DNA of 64,000 bases from Marinimicrobium alkaliphilum (GTDB taxonomy: Bacteria; Pseudomonadota; Gammaproteobacteria; Pseudomonadales; Cellvibrionaceae): positions 370,925 through 434,924 of the forward strand of contig NZ_QGMQ01000002.1 in NCBI RefSeq assembly GCF_003259155.1. The letters run 5' to 3'. Positions 37,741 to 45,613 of this stretch are shown here, in pieces; the stretch's first letter is position 1; each line of letters opens with the position of its first letter. A program made the position numbers and the translations under genes. Below the pieces are notes generated by a model, which saw nothing but the letters and a program-made list of their open reading frames with translations, ran no database searches and was not told the origin of the DNA.

Positions 37741-37879
37741 AGGACCTCGCACTTCTACGGTTGACGGGGGCAGACGCCATTTTGGGGGCTCGCGCGTCGG
37801 GGGAACCTCCAAGGGTGTGTTACCCTTCGGTTTTGTTATCCAAGTATAGTCGAGTCACGTGCTCGAGGCGGGAGAGCTT

Positions 37880-38551
37880 ATGAAATATTTACCTTGTGTA
37901 GAGATGGAAGCCGGCGCTGCCGGTGCGGTTGATAGTGCTGTGATCTGGTTACACGGCCTTGGGGCTGACGGCCACGATTTTGCACCGTTGGTGCCGCAGT
38001 TGCGCTTGCCCGAAGGCGTTCGCACCCGCTTTGTCTTTCCCCATGCGCCCAAGATGCCGGTGACCATCAACGGCGGTTATGTGATGCCCGCCTGGTACGA
38101 TATTCTGGAAATGAGCATCGATCGTCGGGTTGACGTTGCGCAACTGAGCGCCTCTTCTGAGGCTGTTCAGGGGCTGATTCAGCGGGAGCTGGACGCGGGG
38201 GTGCGCAGCGAGCGTATTGTCCTCGCCGGTTTTTCCCAGGGGGGCGCAGTGGCCTACGAGGCCGGTCTGAGTTTTGACAAGCCGCTGGCGGGATTGCTGA
38301 TCCTGTCCAGTTACCTCGCCACGCGCGACAGTATTGCGCTGCACGCGGCCAATCGGAAAACTCCCATCCTGATTGAGCACGGCACCCGCGATCCGGTGGT
38401 GCCGGAAGCGCTGGGGGCTGCGGCCTATGAATGGTTGCGAGAGAAGGGTTATGCCGTGCGCTATCAGACTTACCCCATGGAGCACGGGGTATGCCCACAG
38501 CAAGTGGGCGCCATCAGCGAGTGGTTACAAGAGCGCCTGAAGAAAGGTTAG
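37880..38551 (+). CDS. Alpha/beta-hydrolase carboxylesterase (phospholipase/carboxylesterase family)
   Basis: 223 residues from ATG 37880, after GGGAGAG. The oxyanion region has WLHGLGADGHDFAPLVPQL, the nucleophile elbow is GFSQGG, the acid is in HGTRDPVVP and the His in YPMEHGVCPQ. This is the PF02230 family (EstB of Pseudomonas, related to acyl-protein thioesterases). It is cytoplasmic by absence of a signal and probably acts on short-chain esters. It is divergent from ppnN and convergent with napC. Confidence 0.92.
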   Translation: MKYLPCVEMEAGAAGAVDSAVIWLHGLGADGHDFAPLVPQLRLPEGVRTRFVFPHAPKMPVTINGGYVMPAWYDILEMSIDRRVDVAQLSASSEAVQGLIQRELDAGVRSERIVLAGFSQGGAVAYEAGLSFDKPLAGLLILSSYLATRDSIALHAANRKTPILIEHGTRDPVVPEALGAAAYEWLREKGYAVRYQTYPMEHGVCPQQVGAISEWLQERLKKG

Positions 38552-38569
38552 GCGGCGTTTTGCCACCGA

Positions 38570-39217
38570 TCACTCGGTGGCAAAACGCTGTTGCATGTAG
38601 CGGTCAAGGTGCGGCGTGTCTACCTCGTGCAGGCCCATGGGGACACCGGACATATCCGGCAAGTGGTGGGCGATACCTTTGTGACAGTCGATGCAGGTTT
38701 TTTCACCACTGGCCAGATAGGTGGAGTGCATGGCGCGCGCCCGGGGTGCTTGTAGGGTAAAGTCCATGGATTCAAACTCGTGGCAGTTACGGCATTCGAG
38801 TGAATCATTCGCTTTAAGGCGGCGCCATTCCCGCTCGGCCAGTTCCCGGCGTTTCGCCTCATACTTTTCATGGGTATTGATGGTGCCAAAGATCCAGCCC
38901 CACACTTCCTTTGAAGCCTCCATTTTGCGTGCAATTTTGAAGGTCCAGTCGTGCGGCACATGGCAGTCCGCACACTCGGCCCGCACGCCGGAGCGATTGG
39001 TGTAGTGGATGGTGGAAATCAGCTCCTGGTAGGGTTTGGACTGCATCTCGTGGCAACTGATACAGAACTCCTGGGTATTGGTCACCTCCAGGGCGGTGTT
39101 GAACCCGCCCCAGAACATGATACCCATGATAAAGCCACCCATACTCAGCACACCCATGCTGATGTAGGAAGCCGGGCGGTTAAAAACCTGCCAGTAGGTT
39201 TTCAGGAATTTCAGCAT
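38570..39217 (-). CDS. napC: NapC/NirT tetrahaem cytochrome c
   Basis: 215 residues. One N-terminal membrane anchor (about 20-45) and four CxxCH haem sites: CISCH, CADCH, CRNCH and CIDCH. NapC transfers electrons from the quinol pool to NapAB in the periplasm. It is the last gene of napEDABC, 11 bases after napB. Confidence 0.97.
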
Positions 39218-39228
39218 AGGTGACCTCG

Positions 39229-39690
39229 TTAATTGTCCTGGCTTTCCCGAAAGACGGCGTCGATACCCTTAAAGCGGTTGTCGCTGGCTGCGCGGGTGTC
39301 GTGTTGGGGTACGTGGCACTGGGTGCAGAAGTAGCGTCGCGGCGATACTGCGCCGAGCGCCTGACCTTCGCGGTTCCAGTAGTGGGTAATGCTCACCATG
39401 GGCGCACCGGTCTGGACGCTCTGGCTGCGGCTGTGGCACACCAGGCATTGGTTGAAGTTCTTATCCACCTGGTACTCCCGAATCGGGTGCGGGATCATCG
39501 GGGGTTGCTCCGGGTAATTGCGCGTCGCGCGGTGAATGCCCGCGCGCTCCCCTGCCAGTGGTGGTGCCGGGTTGTCCTGTAAAATGGTGCCGCCGCGGCG
39601 CAAGCCGTCCGGTGCTGGCGGATCGACCAGCTCATTGGCAACGAGCGCGGCCGGTAGTGCGAGCAAGAGTGGAATCAACAGTTTTTTCAC
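39229..39690 (-). CDS. napB: NapB, dihaem cytochrome subunit of periplasmic nitrate reductase
   Basis: 153 residues with a signal peptide ([17 protein letters not shown]) and two CxxCH sites, CLVCH and CTQCH. The segment [20 protein letters not shown] is a family hallmark. It receives electrons from NapC and passes them to NapA. It starts 10 bases after napA. Confidence 0.97.
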
Positions 39691-39700
39691 GCCAGCCTCC

Positions 39701-42205
39701 TTATGCCAAGCTGATCAGTTCGAGTTTAACGGCACACTTTTTGTAATCAGTCTGCAGTGAGATAGGATCGGTAGCATCCAGTATCAACTTGTTCACCAGG
39801 CGATTGGCGTCAAAGAAGGGGATGTACACCAGGCCCTTGGGTGGTTTTACCCGACCCCGGGTTTCTACCCGAGCGCGCATGGTGCCGCGCCGGCTGGTGA
39901 TGCGAATCTCGCTGCCGCGCCGGAAGCCTTGGGCCCGTGCGTCGTCGTGATGCATATATACCAATGCGTGAGGCACCGCCAGATTCAGTTCCTCCACCCG
40001 TTGAGTCATGGTGCCGGTGTGCCAGTGCTCCAGAACCCGGCCAGTGCTGAGCCAGTAGGGAAACTCTTCGTCGGGCACCTCCGCCGGTGGCTCGTAGGGC
40101 AGCGCAAAAATGATCGCCTTGTTGTCCGGCTTGCCGTAAAACTGGACGCCGGAGCCCTTCTCGACATAGGGGTCGTAGCCCTCGCGGAAGCGCCAGAGGG
40201 TTTCCTTGCCGTCCACCACCGGCCAGCGCAGGCCGCGCACCTGGTGATAGGTTTCAAAGGGCGCCAGGTCGTGGGCCTTACCTCGACCGAACTGGGCATA
40301 CTCTTCAAACAGGCCCTTGTGCACGTAAAAGCCGAAGTGGTGGGATTCATCGTTACGGTAATCCTTATTCACCTCGGACAGCGGGAAGCGATCCACCTGA
40401 CCGTTGGCAAACAGAATGTCGAACAGGGTTTTGTCCCGGAAGTCCGGGGCTTTTGCCAGCAGCTCTTCGGGCCAGACATCTTTTACACCAATGCGGCGCG
40501 ACAGCTCCATCATCTGCCACAGGTCAGAGCGGGCATCGCCCGGTGGCGATACCAGTTGATGCCAGAATTGGGTGCGCCGTTCGGCATTGCCATAGGCGCC
40601 TTCTTTTTCCACCCACATGGCGGCGGGCAGAATCAGATCGGCGGCCTGGGCCGAGACGGTCGGGTAGACGTCAGACACCACCACAAAGGCTTTCGGGTTG
40701 CGCCAGCCGGGCATGATTTCCTGCATGATATTGGGGCCGGCCTGGACGTTGTTGTTGACCTGGGTCCAGTAAAAGCGCAGCACCCCATCTTTGAGTTTGC
40801 GGCTTTGCTCGACCGCAGAGAATCCGACTTTTGAGGGCACGGCGCCCTCGGGCAGCTTCCAGACTTTTTCCGCAAAGGCCCGATGCTCGGCATTGGTCAC
40901 CAGCATATCGGCGGGCAGGCGGTGGGCAAAGGTGCCCACTTCCCGGGCTGAGCCACAGGCCGAGGGTTGCCCGGTGAGAGAGAAGGGGCTGTTGCCCGGC
41001 TCGCTGATTTTACCGGTCAGCAAATGCAGGTTGTAGACCATGTTGTTGGCCCACACACCGCGGGTGTGTTGGTTAAAGCCCATGGTCCAGAAGGACATGA
41101 CCTTTTTGTTCGGGTTGGCATAAATCTCCGCCAGGTGGCGCAGACGCTGAGCCGGTACACCGGTTTCGCGTTCGGCGCGCTCGACGGTGTAGGGGCGCAC
41201 AAACGCGGCGAACTCCTCAAAGCTGATATCGCTCCAGGTGTTGGCCTTGCCGGCACCGGTAGCACGCTGCTGGCGCGGGTCTTCCGGGCGCAGGCCATAG
41301 CCGATGTCATCCTGGCCTTTGGCGAAGCGGGTGTATTTGTTGACGAAGTCCTCGTTGACCTTGCCTTCCTGAATGATGTAGTTGGCAATGTAGTTGAGGA
41401 TGATCAGGTCGGTGTGCGGTTTGAAGATCATGGGCACATCGGCGAGTTCGAAACTGCGGGTTTCGTAGGGCGACATGGCCACCACTTCGACGTGGTCGAA
41501 GGACAGGCGGCGGTCGGCCACGCGGCTCCAGAGCATGGGATGCATTTCGGCCATGTTGGCGCCCCAGAGAACGAAGGCGTCGGCGTGCTCGATGTCGTCA
41601 TAGCATCCCATGGGTTCGTCGATGCCAAAGGTGCGCATAAAGCCCGCAACCGCCGAGGCCATGCAGTGACGGGCGTTGGGGTCGAGGTTGTTGCTCAGCA
41701 GCCCGGCTTTGAACAGTTTGCTGGCGGCGTAGGCCTCCCAGATGGTCCACTGGCCGGAGCCGAACATGGCGACGCTCTCCGGGCCGTCCTCCCGGATGGC
41801 TTCCTTGATCTTGTCGGCCATCAGATCGAGCGCGTGATCCCAGCTGACCTCGGTAAACTGGCCCTGCTTGTCGTACTTGCCGTCCTTCATCCGCAACAAG
41901 GGTTTGTGCAGACGGTCCGGGCCGTACATGATCTTTGACAGGAAATAGCCTTTGACGCAGTTCAGGCCCCGGTTGACCTCGCTTTGAACGTCGCCGTGAG
42001 TGGCGACCACATGGTCGTTCTTGGTGGCAACCATCACACCACAGCCCACGCCACAAAAACGGCAGGGGGCCTTGTCCCACTTCAGGGAGGCCAGCTCCCG
42101 GTTGGTGACAACGTTAGTGGCACTGGCGGGTAAGGGCAGACCGACGGCGGCAGCGGCGGCGGCGGCAGCGTTAGCCTTGGCAAAATCGCGGCGGGTGAGT
42201 TTCAT
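39701..42205 (-). CDS. napA: NapA, catalytic subunit of periplasmic nitrate reductase
   Basis: 834 residues from ATG 42205, with GAGGAG upstream; the TTG nine bases earlier overlaps napD and is rejected. Twin-arginine signal [20 protein letters not shown]. The 4Fe-4S site has [17 protein letters not shown] plus CVKGY, and bis-MGD binding regions include [16 protein letters not shown], whose Cys is the expected molybdenum ligand. It reduces nitrate to nitrite in the periplasm. The folded holoenzyme is exported by Tat, and NapD guards the signal. Confidence 0.98.
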
Positions 42206-42210
42206 GGTGC

Positions 42211-42495
42211 TCAAAGCTCCTCATCGAGTATTTCGTGGTAAACCAGCGCGGCGCTGATAACACCGGGTCGCTCGCCGGTTTGGTCGATGGCGTCGAGAAT
42301 GGCCTGGGGGTCGGCACACTCCATAACAACCACCAACTTGCCTGCGGGGTCCTGTGCGTGAATTTCGGTGGCTGGACGGGCCAGCAACCAGGTTTTGGTG
42401 TCTTCAAAGGCCTCTGGCCGGACATGCACCACATAGCTGGCGACGTGCATGGAATGCGGGTCAATCTCGGCCGTGGCGATACGCGTGGGCATCAT
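42211..42495 (-). CDS. napD: NapD, chaperone for the NapA signal peptide
   Basis: 94 residues. [20 protein letters not shown] and [20 protein letters not shown] form the ferredoxin-like NapD fold. It is cytoplasmic, binds the NapA Tat signal and controls its maturation. It ends 6 bases before napA. Two successive Met codons make the exact start ambiguous by one residue. Confidence 0.94.
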
Positions 42496-42523
42496 GGCGG
42501 TAGTCTCCTAATTGTGTGGCCGA

Positions 42524-42700
42524 CTATACGCCGGGCGGGCCCATGACGAGCTGGTACATCCAGATGCTGAAGCCCATGCCAGCGACCAGGAAAAAGGTCA
42601 ACAGCGGAAAAAGGAGAACGATGATAAAGAGAAACAGCCGCCACTCGCGGCGTTTCTGTAGTTGTTGTTCCGGGGTCAGGGAATTGCTCTCACTGGCCAC
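42524..42700 (-). CDS. napE: NapE, small membrane protein of the nap operon
   Basis: 58 residues from GTG 42700, with GGGAGG at 42707-42712. N-terminal SESNSLTPEQQLQKRREWRL is followed by one hydrophobic helix (FLFIIVLLFPLLTFFLVAG) and the ending YQLVMGPPGV, which matches NapE. Role not well defined. It is the first gene of napEDABC, and no napF, napG or napH gene follows. It was read directly from the minus strand. Confidence 0.9.
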   Translation of the reverse strand: MASESNSLTPEQQLQKRREWRLFLFIIVLLFPLLTFFLVAGMGFSIWMYQLVMGPPGV

Positions 42701-42736
42701 ACGTACCTCCCGTACTCATCGTGGTTTTGAGTTCTT

Positions 42737-42778
42737 ATGGTAATGATGCGATCGACGTCATCGTTTGATATGTATCAA
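42737..42778 (-). promoter_or_regulatory. FNR/ANR-dependent class II promoter of napEDABC
   Basis: A perfect FNR-type box, TTGAT-ATGT-ATCAA, lies at 42765-42778. Exactly 22 bases downstream on the minus strand is the -10-like TACCAT (42737-42742). This is the geometry of an FNR site centred at -41.5. The promoter is about 37 bases ahead of the napE GTG. Confidence 0.8.
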
Positions 42779-42903
42779 GCGTAGATTCGATACGTGGGTA
42801 AGGCTAGTGGACCATCGGGGGTACCGCCAAGGGGGTAGGGCGGATTTTTGATGCGGATCAAATAGTCAGAGAATTTCGGCAGGAAGGTCGAGATGCGCGA
42901 CGT

Positions 42904-42928
42904 GGGCTGGCATGAATAATGCCAGCCC
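42904..42928. terminator. Hairpin after the HiPIP gene
   Basis: GGGCTGGCAT (42904-42913) pairs perfectly with ATGCCAGCCC (42919-42928) around a 5-base loop. It lies between the HiPIP stop and the nap promoter, on the transcript of the HiPIP gene. No T-run. Confidence 0.5.
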
Positions 42929-42939
42929 GGGGCGCCTGG

Positions 42940-43224
42940 TTAGCGGGGAGCCCAGACGCTGCACCAGCCTTTGGCGGCAACACTTTTGCCCGGGAAGAGG
43001 TTACAACCCACCCAGTCTTCCGAAAGGTCGCCTGAGGCGTGGATGCAGTTGTCGCAATACTGGCCTTCGACTTCGCTGGTTTCAATGTACTGAAGGGCCT
43101 GCGCCTGAGGGTCATCGGTGGCGAGACGGGGCTTATCGGCCGCCGCGTAACCCACTGGGATATTCACCAGCGGAATCAGTCCGGCGGTGGCTGTGGACAG
43201 TTTGAGAAAATCTCTGCGTTTCAT
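42940..43224 (-). CDS. High-potential iron-sulfur protein (HiPIP)
   Basis: 94 residues. The Tat signal MKRRDFLKLSTATAGLIPLV is followed by a domain of about 60 residues with the four cluster cysteines in CDNC, GCNLFPGKS and GWCSVWAP, the HiPIP spacing. These periplasmic 4Fe-4S proteins donate electrons, often to reaction centres, oxidases or nitrogen-oxide reductases. Its position next to nap suggests service in anaerobic respiration, but it has its own promoter. Confidence 0.93.
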   Translation of the reverse strand: MKRRDFLKLSTATAGLIPLVNIPVGYAAADKPRLATDDPQAQALQYIETSEVEGQYCDNCIHASGDLSEDWVGCNLFPGKSVAAKGWCSVWAPR

Positions 43225-43395: not shown

Positions 43396-43785
43396 CTATC
43401 CAAGCTCAATAATCTGACTGCGAAAATCCAGAGACTTGAAGTCTTCCTGGATGTCTTCACCGAATTCCAGAATTGTTTCATCGTCCTCGTCATAGAACCA
43501 GTTTAGCGTGATGTGATTTCCGTCGGCGGCAGAGTTGTTAAGAGCTTCAAAAAAGCTGAACAGTAGTTTAGTACTGGAACTGTTAAAGTAACCCAAAGAA
43601 ATGTTTACCGTGATTGCGGAGCCTCCGCATTCGGCGAGGTAGGCGCGGGTGGCATCAATGATGGGCTGGTAGAACGCTGACGCGTTTTCCGGATAGGATT
43701 CACCTTTGATGGCCAGGCTGTGCGCGGAAAAGTCAAACTCAACCTCAGGTGTGGTGGGTGAGGCAGGTATGCGGAGGTGATTCAT
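43396..43785 (-). CDS. siaC: SiaC-family regulatory phosphoprotein (DUF1987)
   Basis: 129 residues. MNHLRIPASPTTPEVEFDFS, GESYPENASAFYQPI, NISLGYFNSSSTKLLF and WFYDEDDETILEFGEDI match SiaC. The Ser/Thr-rich loop FNSSSTK contains the residue phosphorylated in P. aeruginosa SiaC. In that organism unphosphorylated SiaC activates the diguanylate cyclase SiaD. Here it is the third gene of a three-gene minus-strand operon (phosphatase, kinase, target), and no siaD follows; the next gene downstream is the HiPIP, 171 bases away. Confidence 0.88.
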   Translation of the reverse strand: MNHLRIPASPTTPEVEFDFSAHSLAIKGESYPENASAFYQPIIDATRAYLAECGGSAITVNISLGYFNSSSTKLLFSFFEALNNSAADGNHITLNWFYDEDDETILEFGEDIQEDFKSLDFRSQIIELG

Positions 43786-43801
43786 GTTGACTCCTTGGAT
43801 A

Positions 43802-44365
43802 TCAAATGATGGCTTTTACACAAAAGAGTATTGATGTCGGGTCATCGGGGGCCGGGGTAAAGTAAAAATCGAGTGGGGCGCTGGCGTCACGGGCAATGGT
43901 CAGAAACCCCAATCCCGCGCCTTTGCTGTTGGTATCCGGATTCTGTTCCTGCCGCAGTGCTGCACGGTAAGCCTGCTTGATGTCTGTGAGTGTCATGTCG
44001 CGCAAGGGCAATAGCCGTTCGCGAAGACGCTCGATATCGCTGTGTTTTATGGGATTGGTTGATAACAGGGTATAGCCGTCTTCACTCAAATGAATGCACA
44101 GCGATCCTCGCCGGATTTCACCGTCAGTGATTTCGCTGGGTGTCAGTGAATCTGCCGAGTAGTGAACAATGTTTTGAGACATTTCAACAAAAGACGAGAA
44201 TATTTTCTTCCGTTGGGTATTCGAAATGTCGGAGCCGGCCAGACGGCTGCGTATGGTTTCAGCCATTGCGGCAATCACATTTTGAGAAAAGTAACCGGAA
44301 TAGTAGAACAGCACATTGGCTTCTTGTGCGCTGGCTTTGAAGTCGGACAGGACGTCAAGGGACAT
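43802..44365 (-). CDS. siaB: SiaB-family protein kinase
   Basis: 187 residues. VLFYYSGYFSQNVIAAMAET, FVEMSQNIVHYSADSL (the GHKL N-box region with E and N) and NSKGAGLGFLTIARDASAPL (Gly-rich nucleotide lid) match the SiaB/DUF6272 kinase family, an anti-sigma-factor-kinase relative that phosphorylates SiaC. It lies between the SiaA-like and SiaC genes, with gaps of 9 and 16 bases. Confidence 0.85.
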   Translation of the reverse strand: MSLDVLSDFKASAQEANVLFYYSGYFSQNVIAAMAETIRSRLAGSDISNTQRKKIFSSFVEMSQNIVHYSADSLTPSEITDGEIRRGSLCIHLSEDGYTLLSTNPIKHSDIERLRERLLPLRDMTLTDIKQAYRAALRQEQNPDTNSKGAGLGFLTIARDASAPLDFYFTPAPDDPTSILFCVKAII

Positions 44366-44374
44366 GGTGGATCC

Positions 44375-45613
44375 TCAAACGTGGATTCGAAAGCAAAAGA
44401 ATGTCAGGTCATCACGGCGCAGCTCTTCACCCTGCCAGAGTGACAGCTGATCAAGCAGTGATTTGCTGAGTGCAGCAGGTGTCGCCTGGCGCTGGTTCTG
44501 GAGCAGTGTTCGTATTGGACGTTTTCCGAAGGCGATGTTCTTGCGGTCACCGATTTGGTCGATAAGACCATCGGTTGTGACCAGTACTAGCGTCTCTGGT
44601 GGGAGGAAAAGCCGTTGATTATGCCATTTAAAATTGTCAGGTGTGTCGACATGGCCGACGCCCATTCTGTCGCCTTTGAAGTGCAATACCTCCTCGGAAT
44701 CCGGTGAGAGTGAAAACAGCGCGGCTTTTGCGCCTGCGACAGTGAGCGCTTGACTACGTCTGTCAAACCACATAAACGTCGCATCAAAACCGTCATCAGA
44801 TTCAGGGGTTATGCCGTTTGTCGAGCATTGGCCGAGTTGCGACTTGATGCTCTGGTTGACCTCTGCCAGTAAGGCGGCAGGGTCCTCAGGGCCGAGCTTC
44901 TCCAGTGCCTGTCCAAGGCAAGAAGATGCAATCAATGTCATGAATGCGCCGGGGACCCCGTGGCCGGTACAATCGGCAATGGCCGCAAACCAGCCCTCGG
45001 CACGATTGACGAAGTGGTAAAAATCACCGCCGACGGTATCTCTGGGTTGCCACTCCAAGTGAGCAGTGGGCAGGCTTTCGCTAAGGGCCTGATCCGATGT
45101 CCGAAGCATGGCGCGCTGTATGACACTGGCATAGTCAATGCTGTGCATGATCTGGCGGTTTTTTTCAGCTTGTAGCTCGGCCACCAGATTCATGAGGTCC
45201 ATCCCCGAGCCCAGGCCCAGATAAGTGTTGTCATCGGTAATAATGAAACCGTCAGACAGGGCCTTTTCACCGCTGGCAACTGCCTGGAAGGTCAACGCTT
45301 CAATTGACAGGCCTTGATCGACGATCAGGGGTTCGGCGTCCATAAAAAGCGTGCAGTTCTTTCGACCGTACACTTCTTTGTGGAAGGGCTTGGCAACCTG
45401 TGTAAGAAAGCGGTCCCGATTTATCAGGCCAACCGGAAGGCCATTATCTACGACAGGCAGGCTGGTGACTTTGGCGTGTTGGTCGAAGAGGGCCTGAACA
45501 TCCTGGTTGGTCAGATCGGGAGACACCTGGAGCTGATGAGCACACAGGTCCCGTGCGGAGACCTGCGTGGGGCGGGGCATAGTCGTGCGTGATGCATCGA
45601 AAGCGATGGTCAT
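44375..45613 (-). CDS. CBS-domain PP2C (SpoIIE) phosphatase, SiaA-like
   Basis: 412 residues. Residues 20-150 look like two CBS motifs (VTSLPVVDNGLPVGLINRDR and the later DGFIITDDNTYLGLGSGMDL). Then comes the SpoIIE/PP2C domain with ERP-type start LEWQPRDTVGGDFYHF, IADCTGHGVPGAFMTLIAS and LVLVTTDGLIDQIGDRKNI, retaining metal-binding Asp residues. In P. aeruginosa SiaA is a membrane protein with a HAMP region; here no membrane segment is seen and CBS domains replace it, so the input is probably a cytosolic ligand (inference). It should dephosphorylate the SiaC protein. Confidence 0.85.
   Translation of the reverse strand: MTIAFDASRTTMPRPTQVSARDLCAHQLQVSPDLTNQDVQALFDQHAKVTSLPVVDNGLPVGLINRDRFLTQVAKPFHKEVYGRKNCTLFMDAEPLIVDQGLSIEALTFQAVASGEKALSDGFIITDDNTYLGLGSGMDLMNLVAELQAEKNRQIMHSIDYASVIQRAMLRTSDQALSESLPTAHLEWQPRDTVGGDFYHFVNRAEGWFAAIADCTGHGVPGAFMTLIASSCLGQALEKLGPEDPAALLAEVNQSIKSQLGQCSTNGITPESDDGFDATFMWFDRRSQALTVAGAKAALFSLSPDSEEVLHFKGDRMGVGHVDTPDNFKWHNQRLFLPPETLVLVTTDGLIDQIGDRKNIAFGKRPIRTLLQNQRQATPAALSKSLLDQLSLWQGEELRRDDLTFFCFRIHV

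Follow-up and report, generated by a model that had tools for sequence, protein, structure and literature searches.

A CBS-type SiaABC module without a recognisable SiaD in Marinimicrobium alkaliphilum

In Pseudomonas aeruginosa, SiaC is the activator of one diguanylate cyclase. On what could SiaC act where the siaABC gene order is kept and no cyclase gene follows? Such a locus lies on the minus strand, at 43396-45613, of the 64,000-nucleotide stretch of the Marinimicrobium alkaliphilum genome analyzed here (the window). A preliminary description had read it as phosphatase, kinase, and SiaC in the order of siaABC, placed between moaD and a HiPIP gene, with CBS-like domains replacing the membrane/HAMP sensor and no diguanylate cyclase after SiaC; our analysis bears out each of these points. 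Three intact ORFs encode a 412-aa phosphatase of a soluble SiaA class, combining a CBS pair with a SpoIIE-type PP2C domain (44375..45613; Pfam/NCBIfam, structural model, and match to 6k4e); a 187-aa SiaB-family protein kinase (43802..44365; Pfam/NCBIfam); and the 129-aa switch protein SiaC (DUF1987/PF09345; 43396..43785; Pfam). Only 9 bp separate phosphatase and kinase, and 16 bp separate kinase and SiaC. The phosphatase ORF begins 67 bp past the stop of moaD, which lies on the same strand and encodes a ThiS-family (MoaD-like) protein, and the next gene after SiaC, 171 bp beyond its end, is that of the HiPIP. Inspection of the locus found no GGDEF ORF adjoining the three sia genes.

The phosphatase matches PF07228 (SpoIIE) with 73.5 bits. 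Its PP2C catalytic domain (44378..45073), recognized by its motifs and fold, finds its best structural match in SiaA-PP2C (6k4e; Z 31.3, 245 residues, rmsd 2.0, 38% identity). The motifs VGGD197, D214CTGHG, D348G349, and D401D402 are invariant in 43 sequences and would correspond to the metal-site residues of SiaA (PMC7647112). Ahead of this domain lies a tandem CBS-like region (about residues 18-140; 45194..45562), to which several lines of evidence point. PF00571 covers residues 26-71 only and, at 21.1 bits, narrowly misses its cut-off of 24; among three relatives scanned, two exceed the cut-off (L150, 26.6; L196, 29.3) and L117 stays below it (21.4). The profile of the phosphatase family matches a site-2 protease chain (5g5r; E 0.0014, profile positions 18-63), which we take to be the CBS part of that protease. 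An AlphaFold2 model built from the 43-sequence alignment (mean pLDDT 86.1, pTM 0.72; single-sequence model, only pLDDT 33) places two CBS-like units, a repeated helix-strand-strand-helix, at the N terminus, followed by a long helix at residues 137-180 that links the CBS pair to PP2C (45074..45205; block pLDDT 76-91). The fold matches listed were all PP2C chains, which hardly probed the CBS part, so the CBS assignment rests on sequence and on the secondary structure of the model. With this qualification, the domain check leaves the earlier reading of the N terminus standing.

Adenine-nucleotide CBS sensors usually carry the ribose-binding motif [S/T]-x-x-D. The motif is absent from CBS1, which has N65..R68 at that place; CBS2 has S136..D139 in the window protein, but 34 of 42 relatives have Gln in place of this key Asp. 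These residues neither favor nor disfavor an adenine nucleotide, one of the inputs that the preliminary description had suggested. The N-terminal region matches ORFs in 53 of 369 genomes of the class, its own included (E 0.001 or better). Twenty of the matching regions were sampled, mainly by ORF length near that of the window protein and with one from the host genome, and the PP2C query matched only one of them, L117. This CBS region was present in five of six ORFs scanned with Pfam: three EAL-CBS-GGDEF proteins (in two of which CBS scored below the Pfam cut-off), one CBS-GGDEF hybrid histidine kinase, and one CBS histidine kinase. The host itself encodes an EAL-CBS-GGDEF protein (L136:6987-8780) whose CBS part is related to the phosphatase N terminus. 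Since the same CBS region occurs on EAL-CBS-GGDEF proteins and histidine kinases, the CBS pair is evidently a common, exchangeable sensor. According to the argument made in PMC12143880, sensors reach PP2C phosphatases by way of dimeric helical linkers and can be swapped with the sensors of GGDEF enzymes; a linker mechanism of this kind would fit the CBS pair, the helix at 137-180, and the occurrence of the same CBS pair on GGDEF proteins.

The preliminary description had taken the CBS form itself as a sign of an unusual output and had proposed a survey of CBS-PP2C with DUF1987. Scanning named genomes with the CBS-PP2C alignment revealed at least 483 stretches encoding relatives, of which we kept the best 80 (L150-L229). 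These best 80 of at least 483 are 52-58% identical to the window phosphatase, from residue 1-35 to residue 408-412, and come mostly from Burkholderiales and Pseudomonas. SiaB, SiaC, and a GGDEF ORF follow CBS-PP2C in that order in 77 of the 80 loci, and a GGDEF ORF follows SiaC in 79. A GGDEF ORF thus normally accompanies CBS-PP2C, and the survey gives no support to the CBS form as a sign of an unusual output. One locus in this set, L205, lies on a contig that ends about 0.7 kb past SiaC, with no GGDEF ORF called; in another, L195, the GGDEF query matches only a 94-aa ORF, and this locus is counted among the 77 and left out of the stalk alignment. Two Acidovorax operons (L199 and L207) seemingly contain CBS-PP2C, SiaC, and GGDEF genes without SiaB between phosphatase and SiaC, as judged with phmmer. 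The distant L117, from another order of the same class, has the same order of CBS-PP2C, SiaB, SiaC, and GGDEF. As judged from these alignments, CBS-PP2C is a widespread SiaA class, ordinary within a large Sia branch. Our literature search found no study of the CBS-type operon, nor of the stalk described below on class III cyclases or GAF-HD proteins. Closer to the host, SiaC is present in 21 of 293 genomes of the order, and the 20 other loci all have a long PP2C ORF of 661-807 aa and none has CBS-PP2C; within the family, the window's genome is the only one of 144 with SiaC. The real peculiarity of the locus is thus its missing output, rather than the CBS-PP2C form.

Are the kinase and SiaC still equipped for switching? 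The kinase matches PF19788/DUF6272 with 125.6 bits and the NCBIfam profile of SiaB-family kinases (NF038262) with 184.4 bits (cut-off, 85), and its E61 aligns with Glu61 of P. aeruginosa SiaB, the residue predicted to be catalytic there. SiaC is the only match to PF09345 in the whole genome (142.1 bits; cut-off, 24.5). Its Ser69 (codon at 43579..43581) aligns with the phospho-acceptor Thr68 of P. aeruginosa SiaC, and Ser also occupies this position in L117 and in 78 of 78 CBS-type relatives, a set comprising the 80 loci less L198 and one excluded by length. We took 14 columns from PMC8457831 to represent the SiaC docking face. The window SiaC has the commonest residue of the 78 CBS-type SiaCs in 12 of these columns, the other two being E at 79 (shared by 31 of 78) and D at 110 (2 of 78). 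Judged by these residues, the docking face is close to the class consensus and largely kept.

We then asked what such a docking face would meet. CBS-type SiaD proteins open with a helical stalk, DLFxxExxAL ... YERLxRETRRLIxRSDRAE, whose S-D-R core recurs within ISDRYQ in the order's canonical SiaDs. According to passages of PMC8457831, SiaC is contacted around T68 by the segment I81 to Q86 in the SiaD of P. aeruginosa, with which the S-D-R core, as read from the SiaDs of the order, agrees. The CBS-type stalk likely carries a single SiaC-docking motif.

The host genome contains 45 GGDEF matches, some of them partial, and 46 matches to the SiaD profile NF038266, all below its cut-off of 290 (best, 184.9). 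Profile searches for the stalk were negative throughout: the best E value in the host genome was 0.26 with the CBS-type profile (53 of 53 candidates scored), and nothing was found at E<=10 with either the canonical two-motif profile (13 of 13 candidates) or the all-class profile (43 of 43 candidates). A SiaD elsewhere in the genome, the finding that the preliminary description had said would count against it, did not appear in the form of a protein with a recognizable SiaC-docking stalk. As controls outside the respective profiles, the canonical profile found SiaD in five of five canonical-SiaA genomes (G005, G026, G094, G122, and G170), and the all-class profile found a stalk in four of four genomes (G820, G026, G1058, and G848); the CBS-type positives G611, G222, and G039 are members of that profile itself, which misses canonical stalks (G005 and G122). 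The profiles could miss a fast-evolving stalk. A 98-position N-terminal profile, run on the host loci of the 45 GGDEF matches plus the window, gave seven weak matches, mostly at the junction preceding the GGDEF domain (best, 18.7 bits), none with an RSDR core. Four weak host matches to the CBS-type profile were also dismissed by eye: probably a spurious ORF, a GGDEF protein without the motif, and two others, presumably a small acidic protein and a gyrase/topoisomerase-like protein.

To place this result, we surveyed the stalk across 398 genomes of the phylum, scoring at most 14 candidates per genome. SiaC was found in 67 genomes, the stalk in 53, and both in 51 (Fisher p 1.6e-47, without kinship correction). 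Of 77 stalk matches, 48 lie within 500 bp of SiaC; the other 29 are farther away or on another contig, mostly in draft genomes. Two genomes (G848 and G975) have the stalk only, and 16 have SiaC only. Six of the latter have a canonical two-motif stalk (G020, G026, G094, G122, G170, and G197, with the sequences of G020 and G197 being part of the profile used), a canonical SiaD adjoins SiaC in G271, and matches in G841, G902, and G935 are partial or weak. This leaves G000, G829, G921, G948, G970, and G1019; neither kind of stalk was found with the canonical and all-class profiles in G000, G829, G921, and G970. SiaC matches strongly in G829, G921, and G970, which may hold further orphan SiaCs.

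The stalk is carried by more than one kind of protein. We classified 30 stalk ORFs, chosen among the best scoring of the 77, so the shares are not representative: 19 are GAF-HD proteins, 10 are GGDEF proteins, and 1 is a class III cyclase, with Pfam bearing out individual members. GAF-HD proteins of about 690 aa that carry the fused stalk are encoded in many phylum genomes (L289-L307, e.g., L290), often beside SiaC or in the same genome, and these are likely a further class of SiaC output. Class III (adenylate/guanylate) cyclase domains carry the fused stalk in L075, L076, L077, L078, and L288. Since those of L075-L078 adjoin SiaB and SiaC, SiaC control of such a cyclase is suggested.

We next consider where the host module came from and whether its neighborhood points to a function. 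GC content is 0.487 for SiaC, 0.502 for SiaB, and 0.546 for PP2C, against 0.554-0.661 for the 12 neighboring genes measured, with the phosphatase only just below napC; GC3 is 0.55-0.60 in the sia genes and 0.66-0.80 in the neighbors. The low GC and the absence of the module from the 143 other family genomes suggest horizontal gain. This reading is drawn from GC and patchy presence: in a tree of the PP2C part, the window phosphatase falls in a clade with 80 others (support, 100/99) whose base is unresolved. Regarding the neighborhood, the preliminary description had placed the module in a nitrate-respiration district; our comparisons do not sustain a link of the module to nitrate respiration. 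Among ORFs called within flanks of up to 7 kb, nap, moa, moeA, HiPIP, and esterase had no match at E 1e-8 near any of the 80 relatives, in a search that could miss very short proteins. Perfect FNR-type boxes (TTGAT-N4-ATCAA) lie at 42765-42778 and 42848-42861, between HiPIP and napD, and none lies at the sia genes; with up to two mismatches allowed, the whole window has 42 such matches, against 16.7 expected from shuffles. By their position, these boxes appear to serve the nap side rather than the sia genes. Promoter and terminator scans gave results at chance level. Because the context is absent from the 80 relatives and the boxes lie away from sia, nitrate respiration is probably not the module's concern and the neighborhood is probably incidental, and read-through from the nar-moa genes could affect sia expression. 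In 12 family relatives with a HiPIP gene, no sia, moa, or nap gene was found in the 3.3 kb covered, and an esterase gene lies close to HiPIP in four of them (L240, L241, L242, and L244). Unlike in these four, the window (at 37859-43224) has nap genes between esterase and HiPIP, and the nap-sia-moa-nar block looks as if it had been inserted there.

Our preferred explanation, to which we give a probability of about one half, is that the host acquired horizontally an intact, cytoplasmic, CBS-gated SiaABC switch, that SiaD was lost or left behind, and that SiaC acts on a target that the profiles miss. Passages of PMC8457831 and PMC7647112 state that SiaB phosphorylates SiaC, thereby blocking docking, and that SiaA sets the unphosphorylated state. 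By analogy, the CBS pair of the window phosphatase would sense a ligand or state and pass the signal through the helix at 137-180 to PP2C, probably by setting the PP2C dimer. The SiaB kinase would phosphorylate SiaC at Ser69, the CBS-PP2C phosphatase would remove the phosphate, and dephosphorylated SiaC would dock on the helical stalk of an enzyme of nucleotide second messengers. In the relatives, the docking enzyme would be the GGDEF SiaD encoded just after SiaC, which has one SiaC-docking motif. In the host, SiaC would work through a target outside the current stalk profiles, most likely a diverged helical linker on one of its many GGDEF proteins.

The same absence of a stalk with three profiles would also be expected if the module, having arrived with or without siaD, had lost its output and were now drifting without function. 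Of the columns conserved to 95% or more, the window proteins deviate at 16 of 153, 6 of 57, and 4 of 43, ranking first in all three sets, a pattern that also fits relaxed constraint; the end branch of the phosphatase is long (0.83), and the module is missing from the rest of the sampled family. Yet the operon is tightly spaced, its three ORFs are intact, and overall divergence is merely somewhat above that of the next relatives. Since the ORFs and active-site motifs are preserved along with most of the docking face, and since stalk proteins in other genomes can lie at a distance from SiaC, we favor, on this indirect evidence, a live, unrecognized target over decay; functionless drift is in our judgment unlikely. 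Those distant stalk proteins (29 of 77), together with a draft assembly of 34 contigs, would also suit a normal stalk-bearing SiaD situated outside the contigs, either in a gap of the assembly or on another replicon. We regard this as very unlikely given a stated completeness of 100% with contamination of 0 and a GGDEF ORF directly after SiaC in nearly all of the best 80 of at least 483 relatives, where the host has HiPIP.

A different departure would be that SiaC has turned to a target without a stalk, for example a regulator or enzyme of the surrounding anaerobic nitrate-respiration genes. The position of sia close behind moaD, within a nar-moa-nap district, and the lack of any stalk protein found in the host would agree with this, as would the statement in PMC7647112 that, among solved folds, an anti-sigma-factor antagonist came closest to SiaC. 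However, the nitrate context recurs in none of the 80 relatives, no FNR-type box accompanies the sia genes, and the SiaC interface differs little in its residues from that of stalk-linked SiaCs, and we consider such a shift improbable. A broader proposal, that SiaC works through one portable stalk present on at least three types of nucleotide-signaling enzyme (GGDEF proteins, class III cyclases, and GAF-HD proteins) and that the host SiaC, in an intact but stalk-free switch, has moved to a new, undescribed kind of target, is at present doubtful as a whole. Beyond this locus and its missing output, the portable stalk offers a lead of wider scope.

The survey reveals a large branch of the Sia system with soluble sensors; the stalk, in turn, appears to let SiaC reach differing second-messenger enzymes. 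If docking is true, SiaC would serve as a general adaptor in cyclic-nucleotide turnover, and its targets could be predicted across many genomes by searching for the stalk; among the exceptions is the window genome, which could expose targets missed by the stalk rule.

How does the module compare with known systems? It resembles SiaABCD of P. aeruginosa in its PP2C phosphatase, SiaB kinase, and SiaC, in their gene order, in the PP2C fold (6k4e), and in SiaC and SiaB homology (6kko). In contrast, the P. aeruginosa phosphatase has a membrane sensor where the 412-aa window protein has a CBS pair, its SiaC has the acceptor Thr68 in place of Ser, and its SiaD with a docking stalk has no counterpart found in the window genome; the NCBIfam cut-offs for P. 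aeruginosa equivalogs are not reached (SiaA, 199.1/700; SiaB, 77.2/225; SiaC, 86.4/150). The CBS-type operons of Duganella, Janthinobacterium, Cupriavidus, Acidovorax, Comamonas, Pseudomonas, and others (L150-L229) share gene order, Ser acceptor, a near-identical SiaC interface, and a phosphatase alike over nearly its whole length, but in them SiaC adjoins a GGDEF SiaD whose stalk has a single motif, and no stalk protein was found in the window genome. A CBS pair of the same kind is also present, with other output domains, in EAL-CBS-GGDEF proteins and CBS histidine kinases, and the ones examined lie outside SiaBC operons. Finally, passages of PMC8457831 describe HptB-HptR-HsbA acting on HsbD and BgrSTUWV acting on BgrR as partner switches that control diguanylate cyclases. 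Likened by description alone, these systems also set a phosphorylation-controlled switch protein on a GGDEF enzyme, although their switch proteins are STAS proteins and not SiaC.
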